From assembly GCF_037201915.1 (NCBI RefSeq), contig NZ_CP147505.1, forward strand, positions 1,116,001 through 1,180,000: a DNA stretch of 64,000 nucleotides. Direction: 5' to 3'. Origin of the DNA: Haloplanus sp. CK5-1. GTDB taxonomy: Archaea; Halobacteriota; Halobacteria; Halobacteriales; Haloferacaceae. Of the stretch, positions 8,255-12,018 are shown in pieces. A program made the translations under genes and the position numbers. Positions within the stretch are counted from its first letter, which is position 1; every line of letters starts with the position of its first letter. Below the pieces are notes generated by a model. That model saw only the letters and a program-made list of their open reading frames with translations. It was not told the DNA's origin and made no database searches.

Positions 8255-9031
8255 TCACTCCGACTCGACTTCCGTCGTATCGCTCAACTCCACGGCCGTC
8301 CCGCGGTGACGACACTCTTCGAGCGCGTGTTTCGCCGCCATGCCCGCGTCGTGGGCGTCCGTCCCCCGTCCGACCCCGACCTTGAGGTCGACGCCGACGG
8401 CCTCCTCGACGTGGTCGATGGCGTCCCGGTAGGCCGCGGCGTCCATCTCGGGCGTGGCGGCGATGATGTTGTCGCCGCCGACGAAAAAGGAGAGGCCGCC
8501 GTGTTCCTCGCGGAGGTAGCGCATCAGCGTCGCGTACCCCTGTTCGATCTGGATGAACGAGTCGAACTCGTTGAGACGGTCGGTGTACTTCTCCGTCGCG
8601 TCGTTCACGTCGAAGTGGGCGATGGAGAGGCGTTCCTCGTCGGGGTGTTCGAGCGGCGTTCCGGCCAGCACCTCGCGCCGGTCGCCGTCCTGTGCGCTCC
8701 CGGCACCTTGGAGGCGTTCGGTCGCCCGTTCCAACGCGACCGCGGGGTTCGGATCGACGCCGAGGCCGAGACTGACGGTGACGGGGTAGCGGTTACCCGT
8801 CGACTCCTGGAGGAGTCGGTGGTCGTCGACGTCTAACCCGTTCGTCACCGCGACCATGTTGTCGAAGCGGGTGAAGAAGGCGTACCCGCCGCGGTGCCCG
8901 ACGAACTGGGCGATGTCGGCGAACAGGCGGGACTGGAGCGTCTGGAGGTCCATCTCGCGCCGCGGTTCCGGCGTCACCGTCCACGGTCCGTAGTTGTCGA
9001 TCTGCACGAGCGTCAGCTGCGTGTTCGTCAC
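8255..9031 (-). CDS. gch3: GTP cyclohydrolase III
   Basis: A 258-residue enzyme that converts GTP to 2-amino-5-formylamino-6-ribosylaminopyrimidinone phosphate, the archaeal first step to riboflavin and F420. The protein contains two related halves, each beginning like a GGDEF-type fold: TLVQIDNYGPWTVTPEPRRE, then DNMVAV in the first half and VGGDNIIAATPEM in the second. The GTG at 9031 (VTNTQLTLVQ) matches the usual haloarchaeal start better than the ATG at 9058. Its divergent neighbour is a HAD phosphatase, possibly relevant because a phosphatase step in the same pathway is often poorly assigned, though this is only positional. Confidence 0.92.
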   Translation of the reverse strand: MTNTQLTLVQIDNYGPWTVTPEPRREMDLQTLQSRLFADIAQFVGHRGGYAFFTRFDNMVAVTNGLDVDDHRLLQESTGNRYPVTVSLGLGVDPNPAVALERATERLQGAGSAQDGDRREVLAGTPLEHPDEERLSIAHFDVNDATEKYTDRLNEFDSFIQIEQGYATLMRYLREEHGGLSFFVGGDNIIAATPEMDAAAYRDAIDHVEEAVGVDLKVGVGRGTDAHDAGMAAKHALEECRHRGTAVELSDTTEVESE

Positions 9032-9124
9032 GGTGCCGTATTTGGGGACGGGACCCACATTGCTCTTTGGTTCCCGGCCGAGCGAGCGCGGGGTTCATGC
9101 CCCGCCCCACCGTATTCCTGTCCA

Positions 9125-9901
9125 ATGACCTACCGCGGAGTCGTACTCGACGTGGACGGCACAGTCGTGCGCGGTGACGATCCGATCCCCGGCGCGGCCG
9201 ACGGACTCGATCGACTGACGACGGCCGGCCTCCGTCGGCTGTTCGTCTCGAACAACCCGACCAAGCGACCGCCGGCCTACGCCGACCGCCTCGGCCGGGC
9301 CGGGTTCGACGTCTCGCCCGAAGAGATCGTCACCGCCGGCACGATCACCACGACCTACCTCGCCGACAACCACGACGACGACGACCTCTTCGTCGTCGGC
9401 GAACCGGCCCTCGTCGACCAGTTGACCGACGCCGGCCTGACCGTCGTCGACGCCGAGGACCGCGCGGATGCCGTCGTCGTCTCCATCGATCGCTCGTTCG
9501 ACTACGACCGGCTCTCCTCGGCACTCCGGGCGTGCCGGGACGGCGTCACTATCGTCGGCACCGACCCCGACATGGTGATCCCCGCCGCCGAGGGCGACGT
9601 CCCGGGATCGGGTGCGATCATCAACGCCGTCGCGGGCGTCGTCGGCCGCGACCCGGACGTGGTCCTCGGCAAGCCCTCCGACCCCGCGCTCCGGACGATC
9701 CGCGATCGCCTCGGCGTCCCGCCCGCCGACTGCTTGGTCGTGGGCGACCGTCTCGACACCGACATCGCCCTCGGCGAGCGGTCCGGCATGACGACCGTCC
9801 TCGTCCGCACGGGCGTCACCGACGACCGTGACCTCGCCCGGGGTGACGTGACGCCCGACTACGTGCTGGACTCGCTGGCCGACGTCGGGACGGTCCTCTA
9901 G
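9125..9901 (+). CDS. HAD superfamily IIA phosphatase (NagD-like)
   Basis: A 258-residue phosphohydrolase. Motif I is VVLDVDGTVVRG with the nucleophile Asp9 and acid Asp11. FVSNNPTKRP is motif II, where Asn follows Ser. A C2a cap domain occupies the middle, and LGKPSDPAL plus VVGDRLDTDIALGERSGM supply motif III Lys and the acidic motif IV. Substrates of this family include small sugar and nucleoside phosphates, and none can be named here. The stop codon TAG lies in a CTAG that also provides the stop of the convergent gene, so the two coding regions overlap by four bases. Confidence 0.9.
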   Translation: MTYRGVVLDVDGTVVRGDDPIPGAADGLDRLTTAGLRRLFVSNNPTKRPPAYADRLGRAGFDVSPEEIVTAGTITTTYLADNHDDDDLFVVGEPALVDQLTDAGLTVVDAEDRADAVVVSIDRSFDYDRLSSALRACRDGVTIVGTDPDMVIPAAEGDVPGSGAIINAVAGVVGRDPDVVLGKPSDPALRTIRDRLGVPPADCLVVGDRLDTDIALGERSGMTTVLVRTGVTDDRDLARGDVTPDYVLDSLADVGTVL

Positions 9902-10551
9902 CCCCGCAACAGGTTCGTCACTTCGTCGGCCACGTCCGGTTCGATCGCGACGACGTAGCGTTTCCCCGGCGTGAGCGTCGTCTCGGGACGGGCGATGCGC
10001 TCCCCGTCGTCGTCGGAGATGACCAGCGTCCCGGCGGGGAACCGCACCGACCGCAACGCCTTCCCCGCCGCGGACGCCTCCTCCTCGACCCGGACCTCCA
10101 TGATGTCGAGCGTTCCCGTCACGTCCGCGAGCGTTCGCACGTCGCTCCCCTCGATTTCGTTCGCCGCCACGCGCGCGCTGGCACCCTCGGGGAAGACCGC
10201 CTCGTCGACGAACCGTTCGTACCGCTCCTGATCGCGGGCGGCGATGCGAGCGACCGTCCGAACCGCCGGGTTCATCTCCTCGGCCTCCATGCAGATCGCG
10301 AGGTTCAGCCCCGGCAACCCGGTCAATCCGGCGACCACGTCACTCCCCTCCACGTCGGCCTGCCGGAGGATGTCCGGGTCGGAGGCGTCGCCGTGGATGA
10401 TCGTCACCACGTACTCGTCGGCCATCGCGTCACACCGGTCGCCGTCCGGTTCGACGACTGTGATGTCGTGTCCTCGGGTGTCGAGGAGGGCCGCTGTCTC
10501 GAAGCCGACACGTCCACCGCCAGCGATGATGATGTCGAGCGTCGTGGGTTG
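9898..10551 (-). CDS. TrkA-N/TrkA-C regulatory protein without a normal start codon
   Basis: Conserved sequence covers 217 codons. An NAD-binding Rossmann segment begins LDIIIAGGGRVGFETAALL, continues with ITVVEPDGDRC and IIHGDASDPDILRQADV, and is followed by a TrkA_C domain (VRVEEEASAAGKALRSVRFP). Such proteins gate potassium or amino-acid transporters by binding NAD(H) or ATP. The first ATG in frame (10425) would remove the glycine loop, and between it and the upstream TGA (10552-10554) there is no ATG, GTG or TTG. The frame is the same as that of the upstream permease, so the two proteins are separated only by that TGA. Possibilities are stop readthrough, a rare start (such as CTG at the junction plus a shift), a recent nonsense mutation in a fused gene, or a sequencing error. 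Confidence 0.7.
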   Translation of the reverse strand, partial: QPTTLDIIIAGGGRVGFETAALLDTRGHDITVVEPDGDRCDAMADEYVVTIIHGDASDPDILRQADVEGSDVVAGLTGLPGLNLAICMEAEEMNPAVRTVARIAARDQERYERFVDEAVFPEGASARVAANEIEGSDVRTLADVTGTLDIMEVRVEEEASAAGKALRSVRFPAGTLVISDDDGERIARPETTLTPGKRYVVAIEPDVADEVTNLLRG

Positions 10552-12018
10552 TCAGTCGTTCGCCTGTGGTGTTCGTCCGTCGGTCGTTCCCTGCGAGTCG
10601 TCCCGGGAGCCGAGGCGGGTGTAGACGGCGTACGCTGTCACTCCGAGCAGGATCCAGCCCCCGCTGAGGACGAGTGCCAGCACGTCCGTTCGGAGCAGGT
10701 ACTCCACCAGTATACCCGTCAGAACCAGATTGAGGACGATGCCGAGGACCGGCGGGAGCGGGTAGAACGGCATCTCGTACGGTCGGTTCATGTCGGGGCG
10801 CTCCCGCCGAAGTTTGATCACCGAGCCGTTGACGACGATGAACGAGAGGAGGAAGAACAGACTGGACATGTTGCCGGCGCTCTGTGTCGGGAGGGCGACG
10901 GAGCCAAGCATCACCACCCCGCTCGCGAGGATGGCGATCAAGGGCGTCCCGTAGCGGTGGTGCAGTTGTCCGAACGAGGGAAGGAGTTGCTCCTCCCGGC
11001 CCATCGAAAACGCCACCCGCGAGGAGGCGATGACGACGGCGTTCAGCGCCGTCAGCGTCGAGAAGACGGCGCCGAAGACGATTATCGCGCCGCCGTTCTG
11101 GATGATCGGCAACCCCGTCGGCATGAACGCTGTCGCCGCCTGCGCGATGCCGGCTTCCCCGGCGGCCGCGAGGCCGTCGGCACCGAGCGTCCCCACCGCC
11201 ACGCCTACCACCGCGAGGTAGACGAGCACCGTCACCGCGAGGCTCGCGAAGATGGCCTTCGGGATGTTCTCGCGGGGGTTCTTCACTTCCTCCGTCACCG
11301 TCGTGATGAGGTCGTACCCCTCGAAAGCGATGAAGGTCAACCCCATCGCGGGGAGGATACTGAGGGGACCGGCACCGTCCGCGAACAGCGGCTGAAACTC
11401 GGCGGTAGCGAACATCGGCGACGTCGCGCCGAAGGCCACGAAGACGACGAGAATGCCCACCTTGACCAGCGTGAAGATGGTCTCGACGCTCCCGCTGGCG
11501 GCCGTCGAGACGGCGTTCAGTGCGACCAGGGAGAGGACGGCGACGAACGCCAGTCCGATGGCTGCAGGGACGGCCGCGTCCACGACCGGGAGTGCGACCG
11601 CACCCACCTGCCCCGGGGCCGGCGTCAGGTCGTAGACGTGGAGGAGTTCGAGGAAGTTCGGCGCGAAGCCGAGGGCGTACAGCCCGCCCGCGATCATGTA
11701 CGCGAACCACAGCATCCACCCCATCACGAACGAGGGCAGGTCGGCGAACACCTCCCTGACGAAGGCGTACCCGCCGCCGCTTTTCGGAATCGACGCCGCG
11801 AGTTCGGCGTAGGAGAGGCCGGTGAAGGCGGTCACGACGCCGTTGAGCACGAACACGAGGATGGCCGCTGGTCCGGCGATTTCGGCCGCCAGCCCCGTCA
11901 GCACGAAGATGCCCGCGCCGATCATCGCCCCCATGCCGATCATCGTCGCGTCGAGGAGGCCGAGGTCGGCCTCGGGTGCGCGGTCGCCGTGTCCGCTCAC
12001 ACGGTCCCCCGCGCCCAC
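10552..12018 (-). CDS. APC family amino-acid permease
   Basis: A 488-residue integral membrane transporter of the APC superfamily with about 12 hydrophobic helices. The first is preceded by LLDATMIGMGAMIGAGIFVL, the family's substrate-contact loop, and SYAELAASIPKSGGGYAF is the conserved segment after helix 2. It should carry amino acids or polyamines by cation symport or exchange. GTG at 12000 is an alternative start. The C-terminal tail after the last helix is hydrophilic and ends PQAND, followed by TGA and then in-frame TrkA-type sequence, so the natural product in related strains may be a permease with a regulatory domain attached or tightly coupled. Confidence 0.9.
   Translation of the reverse strand: MGAGDRVSGHGDRAPEADLGLLDATMIGMGAMIGAGIFVLTGLAAEIAGPAAILVFVLNGVVTAFTGLSYAELAASIPKSGGGYAFVREVFADLPSFVMGWMLWFAYMIAGGLYALGFAPNFLELLHVYDLTPAPGQVGAVALPVVDAAVPAAIGLAFVAVLSLVALNAVSTAASGSVETIFTLVKVGILVVFVAFGATSPMFATAEFQPLFADGAGPLSILPAMGLTFIAFEGYDLITTVTEEVKNPRENIPKAIFASLAVTVLVYLAVVGVAVGTLGADGLAAAGEAGIAQAATAFMPTGLPIIQNGGAIIVFGAVFSTLTALNAVVIASSRVAFSMGREEQLLPSFGQLHHRYGTPLIAILASGVVMLGSVALPTQSAGNMSSLFFLLSFIVVNGSVIKLRRERPDMNRPYEMPFYPLPPVLGIVLNLVLTGILVEYLLRTDVLALVLSGGWILLGVTAYAVYTRLGSRDDSQGTTDGRTPQAND

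Follow-up and report, generated by a model that had tools for sequence, protein, structure and literature searches.

An ACG codon at the place of the TrkA start in a permease-TrkA gene pair of Haloplanus sp. CK5-1

Coupled gene pairs and layout of the permease-TrkA locus

Termination-reinitiation pairs have been described for Haloferax volcanii (PMC6728339, PMC10666635). According to the accessible portion of PMC6728339, coupling was strict in 13 of the 14 gene pairs tested from Haloferax and E. coli. The available part of PMC10666635 reports that, in one Haloferax pair, a 13-base gap lowers reinitiation by 60%, and that 45.2% of the Haloferax pairs with a spacing of -8 to +10 code for heteromeric complex subunits. 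The locus of Haloplanus sp. CK5-1 described here resembles the Haloferax volcanii pairs in that its genes are co-directed neighbours, with gaps of 2–9 bases in the closest relatives. It differs from them in its downstream start, which is ACG here, a codon that goes unmentioned in the available part of PMC10666635.

The window, i.e., the whole stretch of 64,000 nucleotides that was analyzed, carries the following features on its minus strand:

10552..12018, minus strand: APC-family amino-acid permease gene (Pfam PF13520, E 5.5e-48; orthologues in the five closest species)
10546..10551, minus strand: intergenic gap CAACCC, 6 bases from TGA to ACG (alignment with relatives)
10543..10545, minus strand: ACG codon, in all likelihood at the place of the ancestral ATG start, with T-to-C at 10544 (ATG in all five closest species)
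9898..10545, minus strand: intact TrkA_N + TrkA_C (RCK-type nucleotide-binding) gene, 215 codons from ACG (Pfam PF02254, PF02080; orthologues; coding-type divergence)
10423..10425, minus strand: first in-frame ATG, too far downstream for a start (GGGRVG loop lost)

The permease frame (12018..10552) encodes 488 amino acids, starting with GTG at 12018 (a second in-frame GTG follows at 12000) and ending with the stop TGA at 10554–10552. The Pfam domain AA_permease_2 (PF13520; E 5.5e-48) extends over residues 19–435 and, thus, over most of its length. The TrkA frame (10551..9898) comprises 217 codons without a stop, followed by TAG at 9900–9898, and lies in the phase of the permease frame. Two sense codons stand between the permease TGA and the ACG. 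Pfam assigned TrkA_N (PF02254; E 7.3e-24) and TrkA_C (PF02080; E 6.6e-9) to this frame. Upstream of the ATG at 10425 it holds no ATG, GTG or TTG, and the GGGRVG glycine loop of TrkA_N is retained only with a start at or near the ACG at 10545–10543. The sequence-only reading was, thus, right about the coordinates, the frame shared across the TGA at 10552–10554 and the permease and TrkA-type identities. Its further statements, that the usual start codons are lacking between this TGA and the ATG at 10425 and that a start there would cut the nucleotide loop, were borne out.

We take the TrkA gene to encode a regulatory protein of the single TrkA_N/TrkA_C (RCK/KTN) kind that is encoded beside a transporter. 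It resembles such single regulators in joining TrkA_N to TrkA_C, in its intact nucleotide loop and in its adjoining membrane transporter gene. Unlike the RCK/KTN partners of a Trk/Ktr potassium channel subunit, it is paired with an APC amino-acid permease, whose gene immediately precedes TrkA in the same orientation at 35 of the 36 related loci (exception L003). At its other end, the TrkA gene meets a plus-strand ORF (8894–9901) tail-to-tail with a 4-base overlap (9898–9901); the product of this ORF presumably resembles a HAD-type phosphatase.

The TrkA start and the permease stop in relatives

Searches with the TrkA protein covered its own genome (8 matches), 147 genomes including its own (146 matched) and named genomes (11 loci), in which Halorientalis and two Halobacteriales MAGs supplied the close loci. 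From the 147-genome search, loci were taken for the best matches only. At a threshold of E 1e-20 or better, 37 loci including the window copy were kept, with L004–L008 of the own genome and the distant L043–L048 below the cut. The 36 other loci are partly non-independent: some of the named loci may duplicate species from the 147-genome set, and L002 and L003 are own-genome paralogues.

TrkA starts with ATG in 35 of these 36 loci and with GTG in one (L042), either at the codon that matches the first ACG of the window or at most two codons upstream of it. In the five closest species (TrkA 80–88% identical), ATG stands exactly at the aligned codon and is followed by ACN or TCC and then by CTC-GAC. 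The window reads ACG-ACG-CTC-GAC, and the DNA downstream of the aligned ATG is nearly identical between the window and these species. Because of this match, the ancestral ATG of TrkA has almost certainly become the ACG at 10545–10543 through one base, T-to-C at 10544, in the sequence as given. From permease stop to TrkA start, the gap measures 5, 5, 4, 2 and 9 bases in the five closest species and 6 bases in the window; for more distant loci the computed gaps are overlong, as they run to the aligned codon with the true ATG one or two codons upstream. By alignment, the window spacing exceeds that of the nearest species G002, G005, G003 and G009 by at least one base. In these four, the ATG lies in another frame because one or more bases are missing. 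They are, thus, relatives of the kind that the sequence-only reading had named as its own refutation, with an ATG in the matching place and an indel at the junction.

The permease orthologues of the five closest species are 88–91% identical and lie directly upstream of TrkA. In some other relatives, the permease and TrkA genes overlap as TGATG or ATGA. The exact junction did not turn up in viral contigs that were scanned for it. Readthrough of the TGA, yielding a permease-TrkA fusion protein, would be in keeping with the common frame and the two sense codons between TGA and ACG. However, the permease lies in the TrkA frame in only 8 of the 35 other pairs, with TAA or TGA as its stop, where about one third would be expected by chance, and readthrough would not join the genes in most relatives. 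Moreover, TrkA has its own start in every relative, and none of the 36 related loci holds a fused gene. Readthrough can, thus, hardly be credited. As judged from these sequence comparisons, the locus is a two-gene operon of a permease and then its TrkA-type partner, and not a fusion, because all 36 loci have their own ATG or GTG start and the shared frame is no commoner than chance.

A new nonsense mutation as the origin of the permease TGA was rejected, since the nearest relatives carry a stop at the same place. Thus, two of the options raised from the sequence alone fell away: the fusion, for which a comparison with relatives had been proposed and found a separate TrkA gene each time, and the nonsense mutation, as the changed element is the TrkA start codon and not the permease stop. 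The other two, a rare start codon and a base error, stayed among the candidates.

Conservation of the TrkA frame and lost starts in the genome

The ATG at 10425 was rejected as the TrkA start, since its use would drop the nucleotide loop and 39 codons conserved in coding fashion. In comparison with G002, these 39 codons show 2, 0 and 9 substitutions at the three codon positions, and 37 of the 39 residues are identical. Against the five closest species, dN/dS was about 0.09–0.23 for this stretch and 0.18–0.22 for the whole TrkA frame. In three-taxon estimates, TrkA dN/dS was 0.22–0.38 on the own branch and 0.11–0.17 on the sister branches (bootstrap fractions for the higher own-branch value of 0.76–0.98), whereas permease dN/dS was 0.09–0.10 on the own branch and 0.07–0.14 on the sister branches. 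This suggests relaxed selection on the window TrkA. An increase of about two- to threefold in TrkA, and not in the permease, would fit either loss or weak use of the gene.

The genome contains a second permease-TrkA pair (G000:C1:1520459-1522569), which is ATG-started, with its TrkA 65% and its permease 84% identical to the window pair. This second pair also occurs in G006; among the matches listed, the nearest species G002, G003, G005 and G009 are without it at that identity. It would make a weak or lost TrkA start tolerable. A recent real loss of the start, after which TrkA would no longer be translated and its decay would be beginning, could, therefore, have been tolerated thanks to the second pair. 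The raised own-branch dN/dS of TrkA beside an unaffected permease speaks for such a loss, as does the second pair, absent at that level from the four nearest species. However, the frame is free of stops and frameshifts, its dN/dS is well under 1, the bootstrap fractions for the excess reach no more than the 0.76–0.98 given above, and the window TrkA breaks only one otherwise invariant column, while 13 of the 36 loci (window included) break one to four. Recent loss of the start is, on balance, rather unlikely.

To see how frequent lost starts are, 400 kb around the locus were compared with G002 (209 coding-type orthologue pairs) and with G005 (207 pairs). An automatic filter passed 2 of the 209 and 4 of the 207 pairs. 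After final sorting by eye, only TrkA stood out in this sample as a gene that had clearly lost its start against both species; the remaining passes came down to short stretches upstream of genes or to reads that were probably in the wrong frame. In reverse and sister comparisons, 4/209, 5/207, 2/241 and 7/241 pairs passed, none of them convincing by eye. Neither general use of ACG starts nor pervasive lost starts were seen in the 400 kb sample. Since TrkA was the only clear case among the 209 and 207 pairs, its start change looks like an isolated one, and not like a sign of common ACG use or of missing starts. At about G000:C1 1080669-1081175 (154668-155175 of the sample), a G002 ATG about 14 codons upstream is absent, and a usable internal ATG lies at that distance; a start shift is possible for this gene.

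An isolated change may also be a base error of the assembly, with ATG as the true codon. A lone transition in an otherwise intact and conserved gene would agree with such an error, and the genus comparison comprised 12 genomes (the own and 11 other species), one per species. On the other side, the assembly consists of a single contig and is 99.78% complete, TrkA is the sole clear lost start among the 209 orthologue pairs, and the spacing also differs from that of relatives, none of which is decisive for one base. A base error is, thus, on the unlikely side, although a serious candidate. Overall, on the sequence as it stands, the locus is an ordinary two-gene operon with either an isolated ATG-to-ACG start change or a base error.

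Possible weak initiation at the ACG codon

The 6-base distance in the window and the 2–9 bases in the five closest relatives lie in the short range of termination-reinitiation pairs. The gaps of the closest species fit this mechanism, which has been demonstrated in Haloferax at overlapping genes and at genes a short distance apart. Ribosomes ending the permease at its TGA would reinitiate at the ACG six bases downstream with lowered efficiency, and a low amount of the normal 215-residue TrkA protein would result. The second permease-TrkA pair would make this lowered dose tolerable. By analogy, the share of closely spaced Haloferax pairs that encode subunits of heteromeric complexes would fit a permease and its nucleotide-binding regulatory partner. 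On a haloarchaeal short-leader mRNA, however, activity from UUG was undetectable and that from GUG was weak, as stated in the accessible portion of PMC4574771. By extension, these results count against initiation at ACG, and a literature search found no report of ACG start codons in haloarchaea.

Taken together, low-level use of the ACG for the TrkA start falls just short of an even chance, and weak coupled initiation at this codon is the first choice, modestly preferred over recent loss and base error. The wider proposition, that ACG works as a haloarchaeal start when termination six bases upstream delivers the ribosome, with coupling relaxing the choice of start and setting the regulatory partner at a low dose, is doubtful.

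Provided that the ACG is genuine and in use, the locus would offer a natural test of start-codon strictness in archaeal termination-reinitiation, and genes of this kind would be overlooked or cut short by gene finders. Should the start have been lost, or the base be wrong, the locus would serve as an annotation caution only: an automatic call at the ATG at 10425 would give a truncated TrkA without its nucleotide loop.

Further homologues are encoded in the same genome. At G000:C1:1519596-1522569 (L002, L003, L122), a third TrkA gene (44%) lies beside the second pair on the opposite strand. Two permease homologues with 33–35% identity (L123, G000:C1:1515117-1516430; L124, 977444-978709) are located in open frames of 884 and 761 codons, and these longer frames may include an extra C-terminal domain.
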